DNA from: a virus
DNA length: 23,386 nucleotides
Reading direction: 5' to 3' (one strand)
IMG/VR virus record: IMGVR_UViG_3300045999_000689
Location: 1 to 23,386 of that record
Shown here: positions 5,261 to 22,583 of the stretch, piece after piece
How the letters are laid out: each line of letters starts with the position of its first letter
Numbering within the stretch: the stretch's first letter is position 1
The notes under the pieces: model-generated
Told to the model about the DNA's origin: nothing
The model's input: only the letters and a program-made list of their open reading frames with translations
The model's database searches: none
Translations under genes and position numbers: made by a program

Positions 5261-5776
5261 ATGCTAACCTTACTTTCTACCCTTGTCAGTTTCTTAATGG
5301 GCGGCTTGCCCAAACTCTTAGACTTCTTTCAAGATCGTTCGGATAAAAAGCACGAGTTGGCGCTAGCGCAAATGCAGATTACCCGCGAACTAGAACTGCG
5401 TAAAGCTGGCTTTGAGGCGCAAGAGCGTATTGAACACATCAAGTCAGAGCAGTTGGAAACAGAAAGCGCGGCCAGCACCAAGCAGGCTTTGATTGGCGCG
5501 CAGCAGGCTGAGATGCAAGCCGTCTACGCTCACGACACCGCGCTTAACGAAGGCACTAGCGAATGGATGAAGAATCTGCGCGCTAGCGTGCGCCCTGTGA
5601 TCACTTACGGTTTCTTCTTTTTGCTAGTCTTCGTTGACGTTGGCCTGTTTGCCTACGGCTGGAACAGCGGCGTGTCGTTTACTGAGTTGGCCGAGATGCT
5701 GTGGGACTCTGACACCCAAGCGTTGTTTGCCAGCATCATTGCGTTTCACTTTGGCGGCAGAGCGTTTGGCAAATGA
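5261..5776 (+). CDS. Putative holin-like membrane protein (3-TM holin type)
   Basis: A 171-residue protein. It has an N-terminal hydrophobic helix (about 1-24, LSTLVSFLMGGLPKLLDFF), a long charged helix (about 26-100) and RASVRPVITYGFFFLLVFVD beginning a membrane segment (about 108-134). A final hydrophobic stretch (about 152-168, TQALFASIIAFHFGGRAFG) closes it. The layout of coiled region, 'RPVITY' membrane segment and C-terminal segment ending FGGRAFGK resembles the three-TM holins seen beside endolysins and in gene-transfer agents. A holin would form the membrane lesion that frees the endolysin. The stop overlaps the endolysin start by ATGA, which strongly supports a lysis role. It could also be a non-holin lysis accessory protein. 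Confidence 0.65.
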   Translation: MLTLLSTLVSFLMGGLPKLLDFFQDRSDKKHELALAQMQITRELELRKAGFEAQERIEHIKSEQLETESAASTKQALIGAQQAEMQAVYAHDTALNEGTSEWMKNLRASVRPVITYGFFFLLVFVDVGLFAYGWNSGVSFTELAEMLWDSDTQALFASIIAFHFGGRAFGK

Positions 5777-6249
5777 AAATTTCAGCCAAGTGTTTACACA
5801 TGATTCGCCATCACGAGGGCGTGAGGCAGAATCCCTACAAATGCCCTGCAAAGCTGTGGACTGTGGGCGTGGGGCACGTCATGTTCCCAGAGCAGGGCAA
5901 ACTCAAAATAGACCAGCGCGACGCCTTTGTGCCCCCGCCAGAGGCCATGCGTAAGCACTCAATGGAGGAAGTCGATGCAATACTTAGGGCCGATCTTGCT
6001 CGGTTTGAGAAAGGCGTGGCTACTTATTGTCCTGTGCCTCTTACTCAAGGACAGTTTGACGCGCTGGTTTCATTTTCTTTCAATGTAGGGCTTGGCACTC
6101 TCCAGAGGTCAACCATGCGGCAAAAGGTGCTGCGTGGTGACATGGAGGGCGCTGCCGAGGAGCTACTGAAGTACTGCATGGCTGGCGGCAAGGTCTTAAG
6201 GGGCCTCCAGACGCGTCGGATTGACGAACGGGCGCTATTCCTTAGTTAA
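5773..6249 (+). CDS. Endolysin: GH24 phage lysozyme (N-acetylmuramidase)
   Basis: A 158-residue protein of T4/P22-lysozyme type that cleaves the glycan strands of peptidoglycan. The catalytic signature E-x8-(D/C)-x5-T is visible as Glu15, Cys24 and Thr30 within HHEGVRQNPYKCPAKLWTVG, followed by the usual VGVGH. The second family block, LTQGQFDALVSFSFNVG, is also present, and the C-terminal RRIDERALF is typical. No signal peptide or signal-anchor is seen, so export should depend on a classical holin, most likely the product of the gene just upstream. The start is ATGA-coupled to that gene. The last 15 bases overlap the end of the convergent minus-strand gene. Length is normal for the family. 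Confidence 0.95.
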   Translation: MKISAKCLHMIRHHEGVRQNPYKCPAKLWTVGVGHVMFPEQGKLKIDQRDAFVPPPEAMRKHSMEEVDAILRADLARFEKGVATYCPVPLTQGQFDALVSFSFNVGLGTLQRSTMRQKVLRGDMEGAAEELLKYCMAGGKVLRGLQTRRIDERALFLS

Positions 6250-12506: not shown

Positions 12507-12527
12507 AAGCCCCGTGACAGGGGGCTT
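12507..12527 (+). promoter_or_regulatory. GC-rich hairpin between the 210-aa gene and the PAPS-reductase gene
   Basis: AAGCCCC (12507-12513) pairs with GGGGCTT (12521-12527) around GTGACAG, a perfect 7-bp stem. Only one further T follows, so it is not a full intrinsic terminator. It fills the longest gap of the operon (44 bases), 7 bases before the AAAGGAG of the next gene. Possible roles are partial termination, mRNA stabilisation or RNase processing. Confidence 0.5.
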
Positions 12528-12543
12528 TGGAAAGGAGACGCTT

Positions 12544-13395
12544 ATGAAGCAAAAATATCAAATCTCGTTCTCGGGCGGGCGCACCAGCGCTTACATGACC
12601 AAGTTGTTGCTCGACAACTGGTCAGTCCGGTACGACTTTATTGTGACGTTCGCCAACACGGGGCTTGAACACCCCAAGACGTTGGAGTTTGTCCATAACT
12701 GCGACGTTAACTTTGGCTTTAACACCGTGTGGCTTGAGGCCGTGGTTCACGAAGGCCGCGTCGCATGCACACACAAGATAGTTGACTACGCTACTGCTTC
12801 GCGCAAGGGTGAGCCGTTTGAGGCGGTCATTCAGAAGTATGGCATCCCCAACACCGCGTTCCCGTTTTGCACACGCGAGTTGAAGATCAACCCCATGAAT
12901 TCCTATTTGCGTAGCCTAGGGCTTGACTACCGCACAATTCCCACGGCCATTGGGATCCGTGACGATGAGAAGCGCCGTGTCAGTAAGACAGCCGACGCCA
13001 CGCAAATTCATTACCCTCTGATTGACGTGTGGCCAACAGACAAGGGTGAGATTCTTGACTGGTGGGCAGAGCAATCGTTTGACCTTGGCATTGACGAGTT
13101 TGAGGGCAACTGCCAAGGTTGTTACAAGAAGTCATCCAAGAAGCATTTCATGCAGATTGAACGCGACGCCAGCGTCTATGACTTTCACCGCCGCATGGAG
13201 CAGCAGTATCGCTCACACGGCCCGCAAGTAGGCGACCGCGTGTTCTTCCGTCAGAACATGGACACCAACGCCTTGTTTGACTTGTACAACGCAAGCAAAG
13301 ATGCCCCGACCCGTAGCGCCCGCGCTGACGAAGATGGCGGTTGCTCTGAGTCCTGCGAAGTTTATGAGACTGTGATCAATGACACTTTGGCTTGA
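12544..13395 (+). CDS. PAPS-reductase family / adenine-nucleotide alpha-hydrolase protein
   Basis: A 283-residue PP-loop protein. SFSGGRTSAYM (about 8-18) is the SGGxxS pyrophosphate loop that binds ATP or PAPS. The following FIVTFANTGLEHPKTLEFV is the usual 'FxNTG.E...T' block of the phosphoadenosine-phosphosulfate reductase family. Cysteines appear as FCTRELK, NCQGCYKK and CSESCEV; the canonical C-terminal ECGLH of assimilatory PAPS reductase is not seen. The phage role is unknown: nucleotide, tRNA or DNA sulfur chemistry are all possible. The inner ATG at 12544 was chosen over an upstream start at 12514, because AAAGGAG lies just before it and the PP-loop then sits at the normal distance. 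Its end overlaps the polymerase start by 17 bases. Confidence 0.85.
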   Translation: MKQKYQISFSGGRTSAYMTKLLLDNWSVRYDFIVTFANTGLEHPKTLEFVHNCDVNFGFNTVWLEAVVHEGRVACTHKIVDYATASRKGEPFEAVIQKYGIPNTAFPFCTRELKINPMNSYLRSLGLDYRTIPTAIGIRDDEKRRVSKTADATQIHYPLIDVWPTDKGEILDWWAEQSFDLGIDEFEGNCQGCYKKSSKKHFMQIERDASVYDFHRRMEQQYRSHGPQVGDRVFFRQNMDTNALFDLYNASKDAPTRSARADEDGGCSESCEVYETVINDTLA

Positions 13396-15283
13396 CTTCG
13401 AGACTCGCAGTACATGCGACCTACGCTCTAAGGGCGTATACAACTACGCGCAGGATAGCACGACTGACGTCTTAATGATGTCCTACGCTTTCGACGATGA
13501 GGACGTGGTGACGTGGATGCCGTCCCAGCCCTTCCCCGAGCGCGTTCGCAACTACACTGGCCAGATCAGGGCGCACAACGCCGCGTTTGAGCGCTTGATT
13601 TTTTGGTATGTGTTGCAGATCAATTTTGACCTCACTCAATTTTATTGCACGGCCACACAAGCCCGCGCCAACTGCGCGCCTGGCTCACTTGAGGACGTTG
13701 GCCGCTTTGCTGGCGCGTCTATGAAAAAAGATCACAGGGGCGCGCAATTAATTCGCTTGATGTGCGTGCCGCCGTTCAAAGACTCGCCTGAACTCATGGC
13801 CGAGATGATCCAGTACTGTGAGCAGGACGTGCGCGCCATGCGTGCAATCAGCAAGGCCATGCGTGACTTGTCAGCCGAAGAATTAGAAGACTACCACGTC
13901 AACGAGCGCATCAATGATCGCGGCGTGTTGGTCGATGTGCCGCTTTGCCAAGCGGCGGTTAAGTTTGCCTCCGATGAACTCATTGAGATCGAGCAGATCG
14001 TCAAGGAAGTCACCGGCGGCGCAATCACTAGCGTCAGGTCGCCACGCATGCGTGAGTGGGTGCTTGAGCGTGTGGGCGATGAAGCCAAGAAGTTAATGGA
14101 GAAGGATGGCAAATACTCCATTGATAAGACTGTACGAGCCAATCTTTTACTCATGGAGAACCCCGATGAAGTCCCTGCCGATGTCCAAGAAGTTATCCAA
14201 TGCGCCGACGACCTCTGGGCGTCGTCTGTGGCAAAGTTCAACCGACTTAGCTGTCTGGCGGATGAGGAGGATCAGAGGGTACGCGGAGCGTTCGTATTTG
14301 CTGGCGGTTCAGCAACAGGCAGAGCATCATCCTACGGCGCCCAAGTTCACAACTTCACGCGCAAGTGCGCTGACGAACCAGAAGACGTCAGGCAAGCAAT
14401 GGTCAGAGGACACGCAATCGTCCCTCGGTATGGAAAGCGCGTTACCGATGTACTTAAGGGAATGCTTAGACCAGCGCTCATCCCTGCAACAGGCAAGCAC
14501 TTCGTCGTGGCAGACTGGGCGGCCATCGAAGCCCGTGTCAACCCATGGCTCTCAGGGCGAGGCGCTGATAAACTGGAACTATTCCGAACTGGGGAAGACG
14601 TCTATAAAGTCAATGCCGCCGCAACATTCAATGTTCGCGTGGCAGACGTCACCAAAGACCAACGCCAGATCGGAAAGGTTCAAGAGCTTGCCTGCGGATT
14701 TGCTGGCGGCGTGGGCGCTTTTGCTGCTATGGGTCGGGCTTATGGGATCAGTCTTCCTGAGCCAGTTGCCAAACGCATGGTGGATGGCTGGCGGCGTGCT
14801 AATCCTTGGAGCGTACCTTATTGGGCGGCGCTTGAGGAGTCCTATACCCGTGCAATGAGAAACAAGGGGCGTGAATTTAAGGCTGGCCGTATAACATATT
14901 TGTTTGACGGTCAACACTTATGGTATGCCCTACCATCTGGCCGCATCTTGTGCTACCCCTATGCCAAATTGGAATCAGAGGGCGTCAGTTATGCCAAGGC
15001 GGCATGGAAGCCCGCGCAAGATGCAAAAGAATGGCCACGCGCCCGCCTTTGGAAAGGCTTGGCATGTGAAAATGTGACGCAGGCGGTCGCCAATGACTTA
15101 CTCCGACATTCCCTCAGACAACTCGATGACGTTGTGCTTCATGTGCATGACGAAATTGTTGTCGAGACAGCCGACCCAGAAGCGGCAGAGAATTTAAAAC
15201 GTGTGATGTGTACAGCGCCAGCATGGGCAGATGGCTTGCCCTTGGCCGCTGAAGTTGAAACTATGAAAAGGTATGGCAAATGA
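13379..15283 (+). CDS. polA: DNA polymerase I (family A) with 3'-5' exonuclease domain
   Basis: A 634-residue replicative polymerase. The N-terminal exonuclease begins at once with WLDFETRS (Asp6, Glu8; Exo I) and has YCEQDVRAM as Exo III. Polymerase motifs: A, VVADWAAIEARVNPW (Asp379); B, RQIGKVQELACGF (Arg429, Lys433); C, VLHVHDEIVVE (His590, Asp591, Glu592). It copies phage DNA in the host cytoplasm. There is no 5'-3' exonuclease domain, as usual in phages. Two motif B positions are unusual: Leu437 falls at E. coli residue 762 and Phe441 at Tyr766. The start overlaps the PAPS-reductase-like gene by 17 bases. The stop overlaps the primase-helicase start (ATGA), so polymerase and primase-helicase are co-translated. 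Confidence 0.96.
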   Translation: MTLWLDFETRSTCDLRSKGVYNYAQDSTTDVLMMSYAFDDEDVVTWMPSQPFPERVRNYTGQIRAHNAAFERLIFWYVLQINFDLTQFYCTATQARANCAPGSLEDVGRFAGASMKKDHRGAQLIRLMCVPPFKDSPELMAEMIQYCEQDVRAMRAISKAMRDLSAEELEDYHVNERINDRGVLVDVPLCQAAVKFASDELIEIEQIVKEVTGGAITSVRSPRMREWVLERVGDEAKKLMEKDGKYSIDKTVRANLLLMENPDEVPADVQEVIQCADDLWASSVAKFNRLSCLADEEDQRVRGAFVFAGGSATGRASSYGAQVHNFTRKCADEPEDVRQAMVRGHAIVPRYGKRVTDVLKGMLRPALIPATGKHFVVADWAAIEARVNPWLSGRGADKLELFRTGEDVYKVNAAATFNVRVADVTKDQRQIGKVQELACGFAGGVGAFAAMGRAYGISLPEPVAKRMVDGWRRANPWSVPYWAALEESYTRAMRNKGREFKAGRITYLFDGQHLWYALPSGRILCYPYAKLESEGVSYAKAAWKPAQDAKEWPRARLWKGLACENVTQAVANDLLRHSLRQLDDVVLHVHDEIVVETADPEAAENLKRVMCTAPAWADGLPLAAEVETMKRYGK

Positions 15284-17574
15284 ACTTTCTTGATTTTTTA
15301 ATTTCTTTAGCCCCCGAGGGCGAAACAGCATTGATCGTGCGTCAGAAACCCATGCTCAAGGATGGTGAGTTGCAGTTTCATGCAGACGGCGCGATCAAAT
15401 GCACATGGCCTGCCATGTTGCCTGACGCCAAGATTAAAAAGGACTGGGCAATCTACGGCAACACCGCGTCGTTTATCGTTGACCGCTTCAAGGATGGTCA
15501 TGTGTCAGCAGGCGCGGCTTACTGTGAATATGTGCTTGTCATGGTGCTTGACGATGTAGGCACAAAGGCCAAGATCCCGCCTCTTGAGCCAACTTGGAAG
15601 ATGGAGACGTCTGAAGGTTCGTTCCAATGGGGCTACGCCTTCTCAGAGCAACCTACAAAGATGGACTTTAGCGCGGCCATTAAAGCGATTGCCGATGCAG
15701 GCTACACCGACTCTGGCGCGATCAATGCCGTGCGTAACTTCCGCTTGCCTGGCTCGATCAACTTGAAGCCAGACCGCAACAACTTTGCGTCGAAGTTGGT
15801 GGAGTTCCATCCAGAGCGCGAATTTACGCTTGAGCAGATCTGTGCAGCGCTTGACGTAACGCCCGCGCCTGCTGACTCAGTAGGTGTGCGCCCGATCCGA
15901 TTGACAGACGATGGCGCAGACGATGTGATGGCTTGGCTGTCTGGCCAAGGCCTGCTCTTGTCTAAACCTAATCAAGAGGGCTGGGCAGGCGTGATCTGCC
16001 CCAACTCAGCCGAGCATACTGACGGCAACCCAGAAGGCCGTTACATGCCGGCCAATCGTGCGTATTGCTGTCTGCATAGCCATTGCCTTGAAGTCGACTC
16101 CAGCGCGTTCCTTAAATGGGTGTCAGACAATGGCGGCCCCAAGCATGCGCCTGGTTTGCGTGAAGAACTGCTAACCATGGCCATGGATCAGGCGTTGTCT
16201 AAGTTGACGCCCTCTGACATGTTCACAGATGACGCCGCCGCCGTGATCGCTGAGGTTGAGCGCAAGGAGCTTGGCCGTGTTGAGAAGTCGCAATGGTATG
16301 AGCGCTTTGCGTACATCCAAGACGACGAGTCTTACTTTGACATGCAAGACCGCCGTGAGATTTCCCGCCAGACTTTTAACGCCTTGTTCCGCCACATCCC
16401 TTGCAAGTCTATACATGGTAAAAACCCTAAAGTCGAGGCGTCTGTGTCGTTTGACGAGAACCGCCAGACCATGGGCGCAAAGGCGCTTGTCGGCATTACT
16501 TATGCCGCAGGCGAGTCGGTCATTGTGGCCCGTGATGGTGATCTATATGGCAACCGTTGGCGCGATGCACGCCCTGCGGTCGGGTCTGGTGATGTGACCC
16601 CTTGGCTTGAGCATTGCAGGGCGCTAGTGCCTAACGCTGACGAACTAGAACATATCTTTGATGTGATGGCCTTCAAGGTGCAGCACCCTGAGACCAAGAT
16701 CAATCACGCCGTGTTGCATGGCGGTGACCAAGGGTCAGGCAAAGACACCATGTGGGCGCCGTTCATTTGGGCAGTCTGTGGCCCGCACCTTAAGAATCGT
16801 GGCCTGCTGGACAACGACACCATGTCGTCGCAGTTCGGATATGCCCTTGAGTCTGAGATCCTGATCTTGAACGAGTTGAAAGAACCAGACGCCAAAGAGC
16901 GCAGGGCCTTGGCCAACAAATTGAAACCAATCATCGCCGCGCCTCCCGAAATGCTGACAGTCAACCGCAAGGGCCTACACCCCTACCAGATGGCCAACCG
17001 CGTGTTCGTGTTGGCGTTCTCCAATGACCCCGTGCCGATTAGTCTGGACTCGCAGGACCGCCGTTGGTTTTGCGTGTGGTCGCATGCGCCGCGCATGAGC
17101 GCGCAGGCCGCAGAAAAGATGTGGAAGTGGTACAAGGCGGGAGGCTTTGCGGCCATTAGCGGCTGGCTTGCTTCGCGTGATGTGGCCGCATTTAATCCTG
17201 GTGCAGCGCCCATGTTGACCGAGTTCAAGATGAACTTGGTCGAGCATGGCATGAGCATGGCCGAAAGTTATCTTGTCGAGTTGATGCGTACCCGCATGGG
17301 TGAGTTTTCTAAGGGTGTGGTCGCGTCGCCTTTCCATGCGCTGTGTGACCGCTTGGCAGGTGCAGCGCCGTCTGGCGTAAAAGTTCCGCAGCCTGCCTTG
17401 TTGCATGCCCTGAAAGAGGCCGGATGGGTTGACATGGGCAGATTAAAATCGCGGGAGTTTGACTCTAAAAAACACATTTTCTGCGCGCCAGATATGGTCG
17501 ATGTGTCCAAGTCTGAATTGCGCCGCCTTGTCGAAGATGTGCCGTCGCCAATGTCTGTCAGGCTTGTGAAGTAA
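15280..17574 (+). CDS. Primase-helicase (RepB-like primase domain + SF3-type/DUF5906 helicase)
   Basis: A 764-residue protein. Residues about 80-190 look like a RepB/AEP-type primase: VLDDVG with Asp91-Asp92, FQWGYAF, and AVRNFRLPGSINLKPD. A Cys/His cluster follows (Cys240 and His in AEHTD; Cys263, Cys264, His266, His268, Cys269 in CCLHSHC), probably a zinc knuckle. The helicase part has Walker A LHGGDQGSGKDT (Lys488), a Walker B-like ILILNELKEPD, and NRVFVLAFSNDPVPISLDSQ with the SF3/DUF5906-like 'FSND.P' sensor, then DRRWF as a likely arginine-finger region. It should prime and unwind DNA for the polymerase encoded just upstream, to which it is ATGA-coupled. Last gene of the plus-strand replication operon. 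Confidence 0.88.
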   Translation: MNFLDFLISLAPEGETALIVRQKPMLKDGELQFHADGAIKCTWPAMLPDAKIKKDWAIYGNTASFIVDRFKDGHVSAGAAYCEYVLVMVLDDVGTKAKIPPLEPTWKMETSEGSFQWGYAFSEQPTKMDFSAAIKAIADAGYTDSGAINAVRNFRLPGSINLKPDRNNFASKLVEFHPEREFTLEQICAALDVTPAPADSVGVRPIRLTDDGADDVMAWLSGQGLLLSKPNQEGWAGVICPNSAEHTDGNPEGRYMPANRAYCCLHSHCLEVDSSAFLKWVSDNGGPKHAPGLREELLTMAMDQALSKLTPSDMFTDDAAAVIAEVERKELGRVEKSQWYERFAYIQDDESYFDMQDRREISRQTFNALFRHIPCKSIHGKNPKVEASVSFDENRQTMGAKALVGITYAAGESVIVARDGDLYGNRWRDARPAVGSGDVTPWLEHCRALVPNADELEHIFDVMAFKVQHPETKINHAVLHGGDQGSGKDTMWAPFIWAVCGPHLKNRGLLDNDTMSSQFGYALESEILILNELKEPDAKERRALANKLKPIIAAPPEMLTVNRKGLHPYQMANRVFVLAFSNDPVPISLDSQDRRWFCVWSHAPRMSAQAAEKMWKWYKAGGFAAISGWLASRDVAAFNPGAAPMLTEFKMNLVEHGMSMAESYLVELMRTRMGEFSKGVVASPFHALCDRLAGAAPSGVKVPQPALLHALKEAGWVDMGRLKSREFDSKKHIFCAPDMVDVSKSELRRLVEDVPSPMSVRLVK

Positions 17575-17707: not shown

Positions 17708-17905
17708 CTAGTAAGCCCTTTGCATGGCCTCTAACGCGCCTCTGTTAAGCAATCGGCGCGCCTCTGGGCCTTCGGCCATGGCCGCCTTGTATTCGTATTC
17801 TTCGGCCTTGCCTTGTTCGTGCCTGTAACCAAGGTCGATGTAGTAATGCTCGGTATAGGTTAGGGGTCTAAAAGGCGCGAGCGCCTCTGCTATGGTCTGG
17901 TTCAT
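17708..17905 (-). CDS. Small hypothetical protein (65 aa)
   Basis: The product begins MNQTIAEALAPFRPLTYTEH and continues YYIDLGYRHEQGKAEEYEYK, then a helical Ala/Glu/Arg-rich end (ARRLLNRGALEAMQRAY). It is soluble and mostly helical. AGGGAG stands 8 bases before the ATG, and the ATG overlaps the previous stop (ATGA). Unknown family. Part of a strictly co-directional cassette of mini-genes, so probably an early accessory protein. Confidence 0.68.
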   Translation of the reverse strand: MNQTIAEALAPFRPLTYTEHYYIDLGYRHEQGKAEEYEYKAAMAEGPEARRLLNRGALEAMQRAY

Positions 17906-18108
17906 GGCAATAACTCCCTAGCGTCTGCGGTAACCTTGGCCAACTTCTCTGTGTCGCCGTCTTCGATGGCGTCTAAGAGGGCATAAACGGCGTGTTGCAG
18001 ATCCGCAATCTGTGCGAACATGGCAGCCACACCTGTAAAGCCCTCAGCGTGTGCGATGGCCTCGGCTTCGTCTGGCGTCAATTTTGTTAAGTCAATCATG
18101 TTATACAT
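17902..18108 (-). CDS. Small hypothetical protein (68 aa)
   Basis: The product contains LTKLTPDEAEAIAHAEGFTG, then VAAMFAQIADLQHAVYALLD and an acidic helical end. 'TPDEAEAIAHAEGFTGVAAM' looks like a short helix-turn-helix-like or SAP-like segment, but this is not diagnostic. The start is either ATG 18108, which overlaps the upstream stop by 8 bases, or ATG 18099 three codons later; neither has a strong Shine-Dalgarno sequence. The end is ATGA-coupled to the next gene. Function unknown. Confidence 0.66.
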   Translation of the reverse strand: MYNMIDLTKLTPDEAEAIAHAEGFTGVAAMFAQIADLQHAVYALLDAIEDGDTEKLAKVTADARELLP

Positions 18109-18325
18109 CCCAGTCTTCGGTTGTTAATTTAATGTTGCAAAAGTCGGCGTGTGCCTTGTTTGTATGTTCACGCACCAAGGCACAGATGGCGTCGATTAAG
18201 TCGCGGTCCACTAAGTCGTTCATGGTGAATGTGGCAAAGGGCGCGGCCTCTACGCCTTCCGGCGTGAAGGCGTTGCCACGGTGAAAAGTGACCGTCGTGC
18301 GGTCGTAGTGCTTGGGGTCTGTCAT
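18101..18325 (-). CDS. Small hypothetical protein (74 aa)
   Basis: The product begins MTDPKHYDRTTVTFHRGNAF, followed by PEGVEAAPFATFTMNDLVDR and ICALVREHTNKAHADFCN. It is probably a small alpha/beta fold. AGGAG stands 7 bases before the ATG, and the ATG overlaps the upstream TGA. No domain recognised, and no membrane segment. Typical size and packing for an early phage accessory gene. Confidence 0.68.
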   Translation of the reverse strand: MTDPKHYDRTTVTFHRGNAFTPEGVEAAPFATFTMNDLVDRDLIDAICALVREHTNKAHADFCNIKLTTEDWDV

Positions 18326-18471
18326 TGTTCTGCTCCTAAGTTAATATGTACCCATTCGTCCATACTGCCGTCGACATAAGCAATGGCGTGGATGTCGTGG
18401 TCATTGAATGTGTAAACCTGGAGGGTTGGGTCACATTGTTGAAGTTGTTGGATTAGTTCTGCGACTGTCAT
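18322..18471 (-). CDS. Small hypothetical protein (49 aa)
   Basis: Read from ATG 18469-18471 to TGA 18322-18324. The product begins MTVAELIQQLQQCDPTLQVY and ends AYVDGSMDEWVHINLGAEQ. 'TVAELIQQLQQCDPTLQVY' is typical of small alpha-beta proteins found in many phages and prophages ('L...L...dpd..V'), function unknown. GAGGAGG stands 7 bases before the ATG, and both ends are ATGA-coupled. Strong translation signals make this a confident call despite its length. Confidence 0.72.
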   Translation of the reverse strand: MTVAELIQQLQQCDPTLQVYTFNDHDIHAIAYVDGSMDEWVHINLGAEQ

Positions 18472-18749
18472 GGTGTGGCCTCCTCTGGTAAGTGCATGGC
18501 GATAAGGTTAAGAATGTCATAGTGATTGCAGTCGTTAGGCGCAATCATTTCGTAGTAGCGCTCGCCTATGCGCGCGCACCATGTGTAAAGGTTGGCAGTC
18601 TCGCATTCAATGACCATGAACGACTCGCTACCTTCGCGCCGTGTCCACTTAGCAGGCGGCAGCACTTCTAGCAAATACCAAAACCTGTCGCGGTCAATCT
18701 CTTTAGGCGCTTCGCCATTGTTGCGGCGCATTTCTTCATAGCGGTCCAT
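18468..18749 (-). CDS. Small hypothetical protein (93 aa)
   Basis: The product has a charged N-terminal helix (MDRYEEMRRNNGEAPKEIDR), then RFWYLLEVLPPAKWTRREGS and a beta-rich section (ESFMVIECETANLYTWCARI). The pattern 'FWYLLEVLPPAKW...ESFMV.E' recurs in phage hypothetical proteins, to my memory. A longer frame exists upstream to a TTG, but the ATG at 18749 has GGAGGG 7 bases upstream and follows the previous stop by 2 bases. Soluble; function unknown. Confidence 0.7.
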   Translation of the reverse strand: MDRYEEMRRNNGEAPKEIDRDRFWYLLEVLPPAKWTRREGSESFMVIECETANLYTWCARIGERYYEMIAPNDCNHYDILNLIAMHLPEEATP

Positions 18750-18751
18750 GT

Positions 18752-18988
18752 TCAAGCCCTCCATCCGGTCATGTCGGCGTAAGTCTTCCAAGACTCCAAG
18801 ACGTGCGCGCCGTAGCGCGGGCGGCGTGTGCAGATGTTGACATACTTCATTTCGGCGCGTTGGCGGGCGGCGCGCTCAATCTGCGCGGCCTCGTCGATGG
18901 TGTTGCACTCAACGATCAGTTTGTTGGTACGGCCTTTGGCGTAGCCCCAACCACTCATGAATTTGTCGGTCATAGTTACATAGAACAT
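18752..18988 (-). CDS. Small conserved hypothetical protein (78 aa)
   Basis: The product begins MFYVTMTDKFMSGWGYAKGR, then NKLIVECNTIDEAAQIERAA and KYVNICTRRPRYGA. 'YVTMTDKFMSGWG...NKLI.EC' is a conserved short phage family, as far as I remember, with no assigned function. The frame has a GTG three codons earlier. I chose the ATG at 18988 because GGAG precedes it at 8 bases. It is probably a compact alpha/beta protein: strand, helix of Glu/Ala/Arg, strand. Confidence 0.72.
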   Translation of the reverse strand: MFYVTMTDKFMSGWGYAKGRTNKLIVECNTIDEAAQIERAARQRAEMKYVNICTRRPRYGAHVLESWKTYADMTGWRA

Positions 18989-18990
18989 TT

Positions 18991-19125
18991 TTAGCACTCC
19001 AGTTGATCAATCAATGCTTGCGCTTGCGCGTAAGTGTCAAATAGGTTGTCGCCGTTTGTATCGTGGACATAATCGCCGTTGGCGTTTTCAACCATGTAGC
19101 CGTCGTTTGTTTTGATAATTTTCAT
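18991..19125 (-). CDS. Small hypothetical protein (44 aa)
   Basis: The product begins MKIIKTNDGYMVENANGDYV and ends FDTYAQAQALIDQLEC. It is predicted as two short strands followed by a helix. The open frame runs on to 19317, but that extension is Thr/Pro/Arg-rich and overlies another gene. ATG 19125 has AAGGAG 9 bases upstream. Similar in design (strands then 'A.A...L' helix) to the neighbouring 81-aa protein, so the two may share a mini-fold. Function unknown. Confidence 0.68.
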   Translation of the reverse strand: MKIIKTNDGYMVENANGDYVHDTNGDNLFDTYAQAQALIDQLEC

Positions 19126-19138
19126 TTTTAGTTTCTCC

Positions 19139-19384
19139 TTAAATTGACGCCAGTCTGATGTGGCGCAGGCTTGCAAGAATGGCCGTGTGAAGCATGGCCG
19201 CATTTTTGGGGTTGTCGATTGACATGTGGTCGGGCGCTGTGCCAAGGTCGCTGGCATAGTCGCGGGCAGATTCGTATGAGTCGAAGGCCATGGCCGTCTG
19301 GCCATGTTCAACGACAAAGGCAGACCGACCGACGCGGTCGGCTAAGTCTGAGCAGGGATAAGCAAAGCAGATGGAATATGTCAT
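19139..19384 (-). CDS. Small hypothetical protein (81 aa)
   Basis: The product begins MTYSICFAYPCSDLADRVGR and continues with SAFVVEHGQTAMAFDSYESA and RDYASDLGTAPDHMSIDNPK. It looks like a small alpha/beta protein. The frame begins at a TTG (19396), but the ATG at 19384 has GGAG 6 bases upstream and starts just after the previous stop. No domain is recognised. There is a 13-base gap to the next gene. Confidence 0.66.
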   Translation of the reverse strand: MTYSICFAYPCSDLADRVGRSAFVVEHGQTAMAFDSYESARDYASDLGTAPDHMSIDNPKNAAMLHTAILASLRHIRLASI

Positions 19385-19386
19385 GA

Positions 19387-19482
19387 TTAACTCCAAAGAA
19401 TGTCAAAGTAAGCCAATGCGCCTACGGTTAAGAGAAGGCCAATGGCCACGGCAGTCAGAATGTCATAGATGGTGTGTTTCAT
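19387..19482 (-). CDS. 31-aa single-pass membrane peptide
   Basis: ATG 19480-19482 to TAA 19387-19389. The product is MKHTIYDILTAVAIGLLLTV followed by GALAYFDILWS. A short charged start, a membrane helix (about 8-25) and a polar-aromatic end suggest an inner-membrane peptide. The stop lies 2 bases before the next ATG, and the GGAG of the next gene lies in its final codons. The upstream ribosome-binding site is weak. One of three membrane mini-genes in this cassette. Confidence 0.55.
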   Translation of the reverse strand: MKHTIYDILTAVAIGLLLTVGALAYFDILWS

Positions 19483-19492
19483 GTTTTGGCTT

Positions 19493-19579
19493 TCAAGAAA
19501 ATAAAATTACAGAGTAAGAGAGAAACAACGCGCAGAGGCAGAACAAACCAAAGGCGACAAGGGCAAAGGTATCTTTCAT
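19493..19579 (-). CDS. 28-aa single-pass membrane peptide
   Basis: ATG 19577-19579 to TGA 19493-19495. The product is MKDTFALVAFGLFCLCALFL followed by SYSVILFS, nearly all membrane helix with two cysteines. GAGGAG stands 8 bases before the ATG, and the ATG overlaps the previous TGA (ATGA), so translation signals are strong. Likely an inner-membrane micropeptide acting on host membrane functions; the target is unknown. Confidence 0.58.
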   Translation of the reverse strand: MKDTFALVAFGLFCLCALFLSYSVILFS

Positions 19580-19836
19580 GCTAAGTACTCCTCAAAAATG
19601 CCGTTGTAATGTGTCTTCACATAGCGCGTCGCCTGCACCATGGCCGCGTCGATGTCAGACTTGAGGCGGCGAATGTATCGGCCTTGATCGTACAAACGGA
19701 TGAAACCGTCAGCGCCGACAATCACAGCCACAATGCCGTCGCCGTCGCAACAAAACTCACCAATAGCTTTATCGGATCTGGGATAAAAATCCCACTCGCC
19801 GAAGTCTTTGCTTTTCAATTGATCTAGTGTGTACAT
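19576..19836 (-). CDS. Small hypothetical protein (86 aa)
   Basis: The product begins MYTLDQLKSKDFGEWDFYPR, then beta-rich FCCDGDGIVAVIVGADGFIR, then a helical end (DIDAAMVQATRYVKTHYNGI). It is an alpha/beta protein without membrane segments. The frame opens at a TTG (19842), but ATG 19836 has GGAGG 7 bases upstream and follows the preceding stop by 2 bases. No family recognised. Confidence 0.68.
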   Translation of the reverse strand: MYTLDQLKSKDFGEWDFYPRSDKAIGEFCCDGDGIVAVIVGADGFIRLYDQGRYIRRLKSDIDAAMVQATRYVKTHYNGIFEEYLA

Positions 19837-19838
19837 GA

Positions 19839-19976
19839 TCAAACCTCCAAGTATTTGTTAAGGCGAGCTTTAGCGATGGCCAAAGTTTTAGCGCGGAAAC
19901 GTTCGACGATTGCGCCGTTGTTCCAAATTACGTATTGATTCTGAGCAGACCAAAACGTCAATGTGTACCAATTCAT
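19839..19976 (-). CDS. First gene of the minus-strand cassette, hypothetical (45 aa)
   Basis: The product begins MNWYTLTFWSAQNQYVIWNN and ends FRAKTLAIAKARLNKYLEV. It shows three short strands with many aromatics, then a basic helix, and is possibly a small nucleic-acid or protein binder. The frame continues to 20048, but ATG 19976 has AGGGAG 7 bases upstream. Everything upstream of it is the promoter/origin region, so this is the promoter-proximal gene of the cassette. Confidence 0.68.
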   Translation of the reverse strand: MNWYTLTFWSAQNQYVIWNNGAIVERFRAKTLAIAKARLNKYLEV

Positions 19977-20004
19977 AAGAAATCTCCCTTTTGTGTTGCT
20001 GATG

Positions 20005-20048
20005 TGGAGATTGTAAAGCATTTCTTTGCACGCTACACAATTTGTCAA
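20005..20048 (-). promoter_or_regulatory. Candidate promoter of the minus-strand cassette
   Basis: On the minus strand a perfect -35 hexamer TTGACA lies at about 20043-20048, and a good -10 hexamer TACAAT (5 of 6 matches) lies about 30 bases further on, near 20009-20014. The two are too far apart to form one standard promoter, so either element works with a poor partner (TTGTGT, 19 bases before TACAAT) or a non-standard promoter is used. Position fits: the first cassette ATG is about 33 bases downstream. Confidence 0.35.
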
Positions 20049-20169
20049 TAAATATTTTACATAGGACTTTCCCTAGGTTTGTGGACCATGCGTGGATAAG
20101 AATGTGGACTTAGTGAGGGTTGACGATTGTCCACACGCAAAGCCAACAACGGCGCGGTCTGCGAAGTGT

Positions 20170-20187
20170 TGTGGACAATGTGGATAA
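20170..20187 (-). repeat. Two abutting 9-mers TGTGGACAA-TGTGGATAA (exact DnaA box)
   Basis: Two 9-bp units touch without a spacer, and the second is the exact reverse complement of the consensus DnaA box TTATCCACA. They are followed directly by an AT-rich stretch of over 40 bases (A-run at 20188-20196 and onward), a possible unwinding element. Related single units lie at 20080-20088, 20091-20099, 20103-20111 and, in plus orientation, 20127-20135. Confidence 0.75.
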
Positions 20188-20277
20188 TAAAAAAAAGATA
20201 AAAGTTTGAAGTAGAGATATATTTATAGCATGGTGTCACGCTAGGTTGACGTCTCATCCGGCGCCGATTTAAAACGG

Positions 20278-20313
20278 TGGTCCAAATGGTCCACATTGTC
20301 CACAAATCCACGC
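20278..20313 (+). repeat. Tandem array of four 9-mers (TGGTCCACA type)
   Basis: Units TGGTCCAAA, TGGTCCACA, TTGTCCACA and AATCCACGC abut exactly, with the last one degenerate. The period is 9 bp and the units share the core TCCA(C/A). The same pair TGGTCCACA-TTGTCCACA recurs at 20436-20453. Confidence 0.8.
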
Positions 20314-20388
20314 GCAGGGAATTCCCACGCAAAAAGAAAGAACTGGCGCGAAAGAAAAATGTGGATCATGTGGGCTATTGCAAAATGA

Positions 20389-20406
20389 TTGTCCACATTG
20401 TCCACA
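20389..20406 (+). repeat. Two identical abutting 9-mers TTGTCCACA
   Basis: TTGTCCACA occurs twice without spacer. An inverted relative (TGTGGATCA, 20360-20368) lies 20 bases to the left. Each unit differs from the DnaA box only at the third position (G for A). Confidence 0.8.
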
Positions 20407-20435
20407 CATTGCGTGGCCGTGCGACTTGTAACTGA

Positions 20436-20471
20436 TGGTCCACATTGTCCACATGACCCACACGACCCACG
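20436..20471 (+). repeat. Tandem array of four 9-mers ending the repeat region
   Basis: Units TGGTCCACA, TTGTCCACA, TGACCCACA and CGACCCACG abut exactly. The decay from left to right suggests an array that grew by duplication and then diverged. It marks the right end of the origin-like region. Confidence 0.8.
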
Positions 20472-20516
20472 GCTACCAGGTAAAACCCTACTGGCAACAA
20501 GGGCATTTCAGGCCAA

Positions 20517-20546
20517 GGGGGAGGGGGTAGGGCCGAGCGCAAAGGG
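20517..20546 (+). other. G-run cluster, candidate G-quadruplex
   Basis: Four runs of three or more G lie on the plus strand: GGGGG (20517-20521), GGGGG (20523-20527), GGG (20530-20532) and GGG (20544-20546), with loops of 1, 2 and 11 bases. This can form an intramolecular quadruplex in single-stranded DNA or RNA. It lies between the repeat arrays and the terminase promoter in non-coding DNA. Confidence 0.4.
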
Positions 20547-20582
20547 CCAGCAAAAACGTAGCGTTCACGAACAATTTTTTTT

Positions 20583-20619
20583 CTTACAGAATTTTTATTT
20601 TTTGTTGTAAACTCACAAC
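20583..20619 (+). promoter_or_regulatory. Candidate late promoter for the terminase operon, with small inverted repeat
   Basis: CTTACA (20583-20588, 4 of 6 to the -35 consensus) and TAAACT (20608-20613, 4 of 6) are 19 bases apart within a T-rich tract. GTTGT (20604-20608) and ACAAC (20615-20619) form a 5-bp inverted repeat around AAACTC, overlapping the -10. The terminase gene begins 26 bases further with AGGAG before its ATG. Both hexamers are only moderate, so a phage activator may be needed. Confidence 0.35.
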
Positions 20620-20644
20620 CACTCGCAAACGCGCAGGAGAACAC

Positions 20645-21082
20645 ATGTTCCATTCGATTCCATTTACACCGCGCAAGGTCGAAGCGACAGAATCGCGCTT
20701 GAAAGCGGTATATGACGCGGCCAAGCTGGGCCTCAAGGGGGATGCCTTAGCCTTAGCGGCGGGCATGCTGCCTATTGAATACAGACAACTCACGCAACTT
20801 GACCCCGTGGTGGAACTCGCCGCGCAAAAGGGCAAAGCTGATGGTGAGATAGAACTTTCGCAAGTACTCCACGCGGCAGCCAAACAAGGCGACGCCAAGG
20901 CAGCGTTAGAAATCCTCAAGCATCAACACGGCTGGGTGGCCAAGCAGGCCATATCTGTCGAAGTGGATCAGCGCATTTCCATCACTGGCGCGCTGGCCGA
21001 AGCAACCAAGCGAGCGTTGACAGTCGAAGACGCCAACATCATAGAACCACAAATCCATGCAATCGACCATATACAGCGCTGA
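20645..21082 (+). CDS. terS: Probable terminase small subunit
   Basis: A 145-residue, mostly helical protein directly upstream of the large terminase. The N-terminal part has a helix-turn-helix-like stretch (GLKGDALALAAGMLPIEYRQ), the usual DNA-recognition element of small terminases. The middle (LSQVLHAAAKQGDAKAALEI) is helical and may form the oligomer core. The C-terminal part (ISVEVDQRISITGALAEATK) matches the tail style of small subunits that contact TerL. It would bind the packaging site and hand DNA to the large subunit. AGGAG stands before the ATG. It overlaps the large subunit gene by 26 bases. The call rests on the HTH-like segment and position. Confidence 0.8.
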   Translation: MFHSIPFTPRKVEATESRLKAVYDAAKLGLKGDALALAAGMLPIEYRQLTQLDPVVELAAQKGKADGEIELSQVLHAAAKQGDAKAALEILKHQHGWVAKQAISVEVDQRISITGALAEATKRALTVEDANIIEPQIHAIDHIQR

Positions 21083-22583
21083 AGACGAACAGGAGTTGAT
21101 GGCCAGATTATGGGCGCCAGCGATCAAAGACAACCCCTTGGCGTTTGTGATGTTTGCGTTTCCTTGGGGTCAGCCTGGCACGCCGCTTGAGCATTTCAAA
21201 GGCCCACGCAAATGGCAGCGTGAAGTCCTCCAAACCATCGCCGACCACATCACACAGAACAAAGGCCAACTAGACTTCAACACCCTACGCCACGCTGTCT
21301 CATCTGGCCGTGGTATTGGTAAGTCGGCGTTAGTCTCGTGGATCACGATCTGGATGCTCACGACCCGCATCGGCTCGACGACCATTATCTCAGCCAACAG
21401 TGAGTCTCAGCTACGCTCTGTCACATGGGCCGAGATTACCAAGTGGCTGGCGATGGCGCTCAACAGCCACTGGTTTGAAGTGTCGGCCACCAGACTGATG
21501 CCAGCCAAGTGGCTCACGGAATTAGTCGAGCGTGATCTTAAGAAAGGCACACGCTACTGGGGCGTTGAGGGACGGCTGTGGTCAGCCGAGAATCCTGACG
21601 CTTACGCGGGTGTCCACAACTTCGACGGTGTGCTGGTGGTGTTCGACGAGGCGTCTGGTATTGACGACAGCATCTGGGCGGTCACAAGCGGATTCTTTAC
21701 AGAGAACACGCCTAACCGCTTCTGGATGGCCTTCAGCAATCCACGGCGCAACACTGGGTACTTCTACGAAGCGTTTAACAGCAAACGGGAGTTTTGGACG
21801 ACCAAAGTAGTAGACGCTCGCACGGTCGAGGGAACGGACAAGCAGGTCTACCAGCAGATCATCGACGAATATGGCGCTGACTCATCACAGGCGCACGTCG
21901 AGGTGTACGGTCAATTCCCCTCGGAAGGCGACGATCAGTTCATATCGGCAAGTTTAGTGGACGAGGCGATGAAACGTAGTCCTTACCGCGATGCCAGTGC
22001 CCCGATAGTGATCGGCGTAGACCCCGCCCGCTTTGGCGCGGATGCAACAGTCATCGCTATCAGGCAAGGGCGGGACATTATTGCTATTCAGCGCCACAGA
22101 GGCGACGATACCATGACCGTAGTTGGTCATGTGATCGAGGCGATTGAGGAATACAAGCCCGCGCTGGTCGTGATCGACGAGGGTGGCCTTGGGGCTGGTA
22201 TTGTGGATCGCTTGAAAGAGCAGCGCTACAAAATCAAAGGTGTCAACTTTGGCAATAAATCGGCAAATCCGGTCATGTATGGCAACAAAAGGGCCGAAAT
22301 GTGGGGCAAAATGAAGGATTGGCTGAAAACTGCTTCAATCCCGCTTGACAGATTCCTCAAAACTGATCTAATTTCGCCTATGATGAAGCCCGACTCCAAA
22401 GGGACTATTTTTTTGGAGTCGAAAAAGGACATGAAGGCACGCGGATTGGCCTCGCCTGACGCGGCTGACGCTATTTGCGTCACTTTTGCCTTCCCAGTAG
22501 CCCACCGTGAGGCGCGTGAATCCACGCAGCGCCGAGCGTACAATGGCAGAGGCGTGGTTGCAACTTCTTGGATGGGATCGTAA
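21057..22583 (+). CDS. terL: Terminase large subunit (packaging ATPase and nuclease)
   Basis: A 508-residue, two-domain packaging motor. In the ATPase, Walker A is SSGRGIGKSA (Lys89, Ser90) and Walker B is VLVVFDEASG (Asp197, Glu198), with a downstream FSNPRR coupling block. In the RNase H-like nuclease, VIGVDPARFG gives Asp322, LVVIDEGG gives Asp374, and SPDAADAICVTFAFP gives Asp468/Asp471. It pumps DNA into the procapsid and cuts the concatemer. The overlap with the small-subunit gene and the TAATG junction with the next gene show one late operon. Which packaging type (headful or site-specific ends) cannot be told from the motifs alone. Confidence 0.96.
   Translation: MQSTIYSAEDEQELMARLWAPAIKDNPLAFVMFAFPWGQPGTPLEHFKGPRKWQREVLQTIADHITQNKGQLDFNTLRHAVSSGRGIGKSALVSWITIWMLTTRIGSTTIISANSESQLRSVTWAEITKWLAMALNSHWFEVSATRLMPAKWLTELVERDLKKGTRYWGVEGRLWSAENPDAYAGVHNFDGVLVVFDEASGIDDSIWAVTSGFFTENTPNRFWMAFSNPRRNTGYFYEAFNSKREFWTTKVVDARTVEGTDKQVYQQIIDEYGADSSQAHVEVYGQFPSEGDDQFISASLVDEAMKRSPYRDASAPIVIGVDPARFGADATVIAIRQGRDIIAIQRHRGDDTMTVVGHVIEAIEEYKPALVVIDEGGLGAGIVDRLKEQRYKIKGVNFGNKSANPVMYGNKRAEMWGKMKDWLKTASIPLDRFLKTDLISPMMKPDSKGTIFLESKKDMKARGLASPDAADAICVTFAFPVAHREARESTQRRAYNGRGVVATSWMGS

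Follow-up and report, generated by a model that had tools for sequence, protein, structure and literature searches.

The locus considered here raises the question of which protein reads a dense array of 9-mers lying between two blocks of phage genes, and what the array is for. It is found in an IMG/VR virus fragment of 23,386 bases (the window: the whole stretch of DNA analysed). An earlier note, made from the sequence of the window, had described the array as a putative phage origin of DnaA-box type, and had offered two possible readers: a variant host DnaA or an initiator of the phage that recognises a 9-mer of its own.

The array and its neighbourhood

The window and its relatives carry the gene set of a podovirus-like phage, with a family-A polymerase, a primase-helicase, a terminase and a P22-type portal. 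The DNA polymerase gene (13379..15283, + strand; PF00476, E 2e-17; phrog_17) overlaps the start of the gene for a primase-helicase of 764 amino acids with a DUF5906 domain (15280..17574, + strand; PF19263, E 2e-12), which we propose as the initiator. A block of small leftward genes (17708..20048, - strand), for which no Pfam match above the cut-off was obtained, separates this gene from the array (20080..20471). On the other side of the array are the gene for the small terminase subunit (TerS; 20645..21082, + strand), assigned from its position and starting about 170 bp to the right of the array, and that for the large terminase subunit (TerL; 21057..22583, + strand). The array itself is intergenic. 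It lies about 2.5 kb downstream of the primase-helicase gene and outside it. The polymerase/primase operon of the window also includes a PAPS-reductase-like gene (phrog_424; 12514-13395), which is mostly absent from this position in the relatives compared.

We listed 16 units of the T(T/G)GTCCACA type and a degenerate seventeenth, in good agreement with the approximately sixteen reported in the earlier note; six of them are exact copies of TTGTCCACA. In what follows, coordinates give the start of a unit on the + strand and the sign gives the orientation of TTGTCCACA. The left arm (20080..20187, - strand) contains units 20080-, 20091-, 20103-, 20127+, 20170- and 20179-, and the right arm (20278..20471, + strand) contains units 20278+, 20287+, 20296+, 20360-, 20369-, 20389+, 20398+, 20436+, 20445+, 20454+ and the degenerate 20463+. 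Between the arms is an AT-rich core (20185..20229, 82% AT), the proposed unwinding element; the tract 20183-20229, across which the earlier note had placed a switch in orientation, is 81% AT compared with 48% for the whole window. The flip is indeed present, and the units nearest the core face away from it on either side. The unit said to be an exact complement of the DnaA consensus was also recovered (20179-, an exact TTATCCACA), and about half of the units are within one mismatch of this sequence. The tandem runs are gapless, as described, but their sizes are not the 2, 4, 2 and 4 units given previously: we find runs of 2 (20170), 3 (20278), 2 (20360, minus), 2 (20389) and 3-4 (20436), together with four single units in the left arm.

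This clustering is far above chance. If one mismatch to TTGTCCACA is allowed, there are 10 matches in positions 20050-20500 (451 bp) compared with 0.13 expected under a first-order Markov model, for which the maximum in 300 simulations was 2. There is no second 9-mer cluster comparable to the array elsewhere in the window.

The array word changes with the predicted wing of the primase-helicase

Relatives retrieved by their terminase, with TerL 94-99% identical to that of the window, are often without any TTGTCCACA box. Other words are repeated at the same site, namely TGACCCAAA and TGACTCACA, joined by TNGCCAACA, TAGCCCACA and others when the identity is lower. At least seven different words occupy the array position across the relatives. 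Even phages with TerL 97-99% identical may have arrays of TTGTCCACA, TGACCCAAA or TGACTCACA. The architecture is kept whatever the word. Among the arrays of 120 relatives, the unit nearest the core diverges from it in 113 cases on the left and in 110 on the right, and neighbours on the same strand are spaced by 9 bp in most word classes and by 10 bp in the TGAC(T/C)CACA class. Looking for the same arrays beside the terminase of related phages, as the earlier note had suggested, recovers the layout but not the word.

One relative (L114) carries a natural chimera (at about 5550-6110) with TGACCCAAA units around the core and to its left, and TTGTCCACA units making up the tail at the far right. 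The junction between the two word types falls within ATGACCCAAATGGTCCACA, and the wing of the L114 primase-helicase (see below) is of the TGACCCAAA type. Two contigs (L298 and L299) assigned by binning to one Rhodoferax genome have different array words, subject to a possible binning error; with the same proviso, this assignment provides a lead to Rhodoferax as a host. Repeats of ACTAAC were considered as another array word and rejected: the phages that carry them have TTGTCCACA boxes with the corresponding wing as well, and the repeats are palindromic and constitute an element of their own.

As judged from the alignments, the array word follows a single gene, that of the primase-helicase. When phages with TTGTCCACA arrays are compared with those with TGACCCAAA arrays, seven of the 764 columns of this protein (719, 722, 723, 725, 728, 733 and 741) separate the classes at 0.96-1.0, and all seven lie in residues 719-741 (17434..17502, + strand). 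In a lineage that is independent of these (79-84% identity), the same stretch is again the only one to separate words. For the three control proteins, the polymerase, TerS and TerL, no column follows the word (the highest value is about 0.5), and they were discarded as readers of the array. The small leftward genes were also rejected in this role because their presence follows the word poorly: for the gene families between primase and terminase, the best case was only 15% versus 72%.

In the discovery set, the residues at positions 721, 723, 725 and 728 give the dominant word without exception: RKRD or RKRE is found with the TTGTCCACA-type word, RA(G/S/A)(Q/P) with TGACCCAAA, LKRT with TGAC(T/C)CACA, RARQ or RGRA with TNGCCAACA, and RARI with TNGCCCACA. 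Since the discovery loci include overlapping records, more weight should be given to a tree of 87 unique primases built on residues 1-700. There are 10 word switches on this tree. For D/E728, all ten independent pairs differ in word in the same direction (sign test, p=0.002), as do all six informative independent pairs for R725 (p=0.03). A pair of primases with 96.2% identity (L146 and L151) illustrates the pattern: 8 of their 29 differences are within residues 719-741, and their words differ.

We also examined a held-out set of 113 new arrays, obtained from three further scans with other primases and including a few from a genome-contig scan. The word was correctly predicted at 22 of 26 loci with a TTGTCCACA-type wing, the other four having few TTGTCCACA boxes, and TGAC(T/C)CACA was correctly predicted at 19 of 21 loci with an LKRT-type wing. 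Prediction was right in only 18 of 37 cases for the TNGCCAACA class, a clade with the wing RLASREYQ; those of its arrays that were examined are degenerate and mix TGACCCACA, TGACCTACA and TNGCCNACA. The exact RA(G/S/A)(Q/P) wing occurs at no held-out locus. New wings were accompanied by new words (A-R-S with TTGCCTACA in 5/5, S-R-Q with TGCCGACA in 4/4 and A-H-P with GTCAAATTG in 3/3), pairings that were read off post hoc and are consistent with the correspondence rather than predicted by it.

A hypothetical residue-base code can be written for three word-linked codons of the window, K723 (17446-17448), R725 (17452-17454) and D728 (17461-17463), all on the + strand. R725 would go with C at position 8 of the word and other residues with A; D or E at 728 would go with T at position 4 and other residues with C; K723 would go with C at position 6, and A723 would relax this position. 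The code is drawn from the very alignments that gave the co-variation.

The helicase part of the primase-helicase is homologous to the C-terminal region of the phage NrS-1 primase-polymerase (PDB 6K9C/6K9E; E 5e-10 by sequence). Using Foldseek, the full model matches 6K9C (E 2e-13) and the SaPI5 structures 7PDS/7OLA (E about 2-3e-6). Together with PF19263, these matches place the protein among the SF3-like helicases of the primase-helicase class. Residues 660-735 (17257..17484, + strand) are predicted to form a C-terminal winged-helix domain: AlphaFold gives the topology helix-strand-helix-helix-strand-wing-strand both for the C-terminal 190 residues and for the full-length protein, with a mean pLDDT of about 90 in the former and about 62-89, depending on the block, in the latter. 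Structural matches of this domain in the PDB are largely winged-helix proteins, at a middling level (best Z 6.7); the P4 origin-binding domain is absent from the matches listed, and a sequence search of the PDB with the domain gave nothing significant. In the AlphaFold models, most of the co-varying residues are located in strand 2, the wing and strand 3, the elements that make up residues 719-741. The third helix (ALLHALKEAGW) hardly varies across the relatives.

That residues 719-741 vary together with the word points, indirectly, to the C-terminal domain as the part of the protein that sets iteron specificity. About 2.5 kb separates the primase gene from the array, and the two could be transferred together. 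The narrowness of the residue stretch, the unaffected neighbouring genes and the independent switches favour function over mere linkage.

A proposed phage origin and competing explanations

Our reading, which we hold with considerable confidence, is that the array serves the phage as a replication origin of its own, at which the primase-helicase would bind the 9-mers by its C-terminal winged helix, open the AT core and prime. The winged helix would contact the iterons directly, with the wing reading the variable bases. Oligomers, arranged as tandem pairs, would form to the left and right of the core, on the units that diverge from it; their helicase domains would then load onto the core, which would be opened and on which priming would start, and the family-A polymerase of the phage would extend the primers. 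Of the two readers originally offered, the phage initiator with its own 9-mer is strongly supported, because the word varies at a constant layout and co-varies with the primase-helicase wing. A phage origin likewise stands as the best functional reading, given putative initiator sites on either side of an AT core. The minimum in GC skew looked for at the array was not seen there: in eight long relatives the minimum is elsewhere, with none consistently at the array.

The other reader, host DnaA, would bind the boxes and open the AT core of a DnaA-dependent phage origin. In Streptomyces and Mycobacterium, TTGTCCACA is a true DnaA box of high affinity (PMC4285127), which accounts for the first impression of DnaA boxes, and the exact TTATCCACA unit points in the same direction. 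It would be surprising if a host DnaA used different words in sister phages, and these have, in the same layout, words unlike DnaA boxes; the box word is not kept in close relatives, and it goes with a phage protein. The differing arrays of the two contigs from one Rhodoferax bin, with the binning caveat above, also argue against this reader. In addition, the boxes face away from the AT core, the opposite of the orientation of E. coli R1 toward its unwinding element. No protein with DnaA domain IV is encoded in the window or in the 50 relatives searched with it (51 IMG/VR records in all). A more distant relative (MW202483.1, L007) does encode one of 98 amino acids (PF08299, E 1e-17; 31423-31719), and its own array word is ATGTAAAC. 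We therefore regard a DnaA-dependent origin as unlikely and do not retain the proposed link between phage replication and host DnaA control; the likeness of the 9-mers to DnaA boxes is best explained as coincidental or convergent. A datA-like decoy, which would titrate host DnaA and so halt host replication or free its machinery, would agree with the local density of DnaA-like boxes. It requires DnaA-like words, wholly missing in many relatives, and leaves the co-variation with the primase-helicase unexplained, so that we consider it very improbable.

If the primase-helicase is the reader, the 9-mers could still be mainly operators, in an intergenic region controlling divergent leftward and rightward genes. 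The array does sit between divergent gene blocks, and replication initiators frequently double as transcription regulators. Against this, the 16 paired sites around an AT core resemble an origin, with which a dual role would be compatible, and a scan of positions 19800-20800 revealed neither a sigma-70-type promoter nor a terminator (weak evidence); a mainly regulatory array seems quite unlikely to us. Scarcely any weight can be given to a packaging (pac) site read by the adjacent small terminase. The start of TerS is close enough (about 170 bp) to suggest it, but the word is associated with no TerS column, and TerS can be 94-99% identical to that of the window despite a different word (for example, in L110).

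Relation to known systems and re-coding of the array word

Our preferred reading, an origin recognised by the primase-helicase, can be compared with several known systems. The array and this protein most likely form an origin of the P4-alpha/SaPI-Rep type: iterons and an AT-rich tract are found near the gene of the putative initiator, on which binding, unwinding and priming would all depend. SaPI Rep and SCCmec Cch2, both self-loading initiator helicases, bind origin iterons with their C-terminal domains (PMC7581432). They resemble the present case in having an SF3/D5-type helicase (fused to a primase in SaPI5), a C-terminal domain that acts on short iterons and the element's own origin downstream of the initiator gene (PMC7581432), as well as in the match of the SaPI5 structures to our full model. 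Unlike these elements, the present one is a tailed phage with a putative origin about 2.5 kb past the gene and 16 or so 9-mers, mostly abutting; across the primase lineages sampled, the word of these 9-mers has switched about 10 times, with changes restricted to the wing region.

P4 has a second site, crr, whereas no second cluster was seen here. The P4 alpha protein is also a primase-helicase, which binds origin repeats with a winged helix and then unwinds and primes (PMC4234260), as we suppose for the phage protein; its primase is of the Toprim type (PMC4234260), whereas homology here is to a phage primase-polymerase. The C-terminal region of the NrS-1 primase-polymerase (6K9C, 6K9E, 6LRB) is the closest solved relative of the helicase part by both sequence and fold. 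In the NrS-1 genome an 8-nucleotide recognition sequence occurs twice rather than as an array, and the Tail domain of its primase-polymerase has been called a novel fold (PMC7102993). Lambda O is similarly a phage initiator acting on several iterons beside an AT-rich tract (PMC7466680), but ori-lambda is inside the O gene, whereas the array here is intergenic and the proposed initiator has its own helicase. Bacterial oriC shares 9-mers resembling TTATCCACA/TTGTCCACA beside an AT-rich tract; it differs from the gapless 9-bp period seen here (10-bp in one class), from boxes that diverge from the core and from a word that changes between sister phages along with a phage protein.

What is unusual here is that the proposed initiator and its iterons have been re-coded in nature, and repeatedly, by way of the wing. 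It may be that the wing, not the third helix, is a natural specificity cassette: changes at a few of its residues would have re-coded a 9-bp origin word time and again, and convergently, so that the phage group is split into origin types. We see equal weight for and against this proposal. If it is correct, phages of one origin type may escape the initiators, satellites or origin-directed defences of another, and a residue-to-base code could be read from the wing residues. One idea for what drives the switches is the avoidance of origin-directed parasites or defences; the nuclease Odn, for example, acts on the iterons of PLE (PMC8263062). Hundreds of environmental phage contigs provide a natural data set in which initiator and iterons have switched specificity together many times. 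With the change traced to so few residues of the wing, two questions become testable: how the specificity of an origin can evolve while its function is kept, and which pressure lies behind the re-coding in these phages. Some caution is also advisable in annotation: phage TTGTCCACA arrays can pass for DnaA boxes, and hence for host control, when their reader is probably a phage protein.

Two further elements were noted between the array and TerS. A G-rich element, GGGGGAGGGGGTAGGGCC (20515-20540 in the window), is present in most relatives inspected and is possibly a packaging or control site. The other is a second repeat family, the inverted AAGTTAGTG...CACTAACTT, which about 17 relatives carry in this interval, for example L186 (9261-9474, in the terS-forward orientation) and also L204, L058 and L300.
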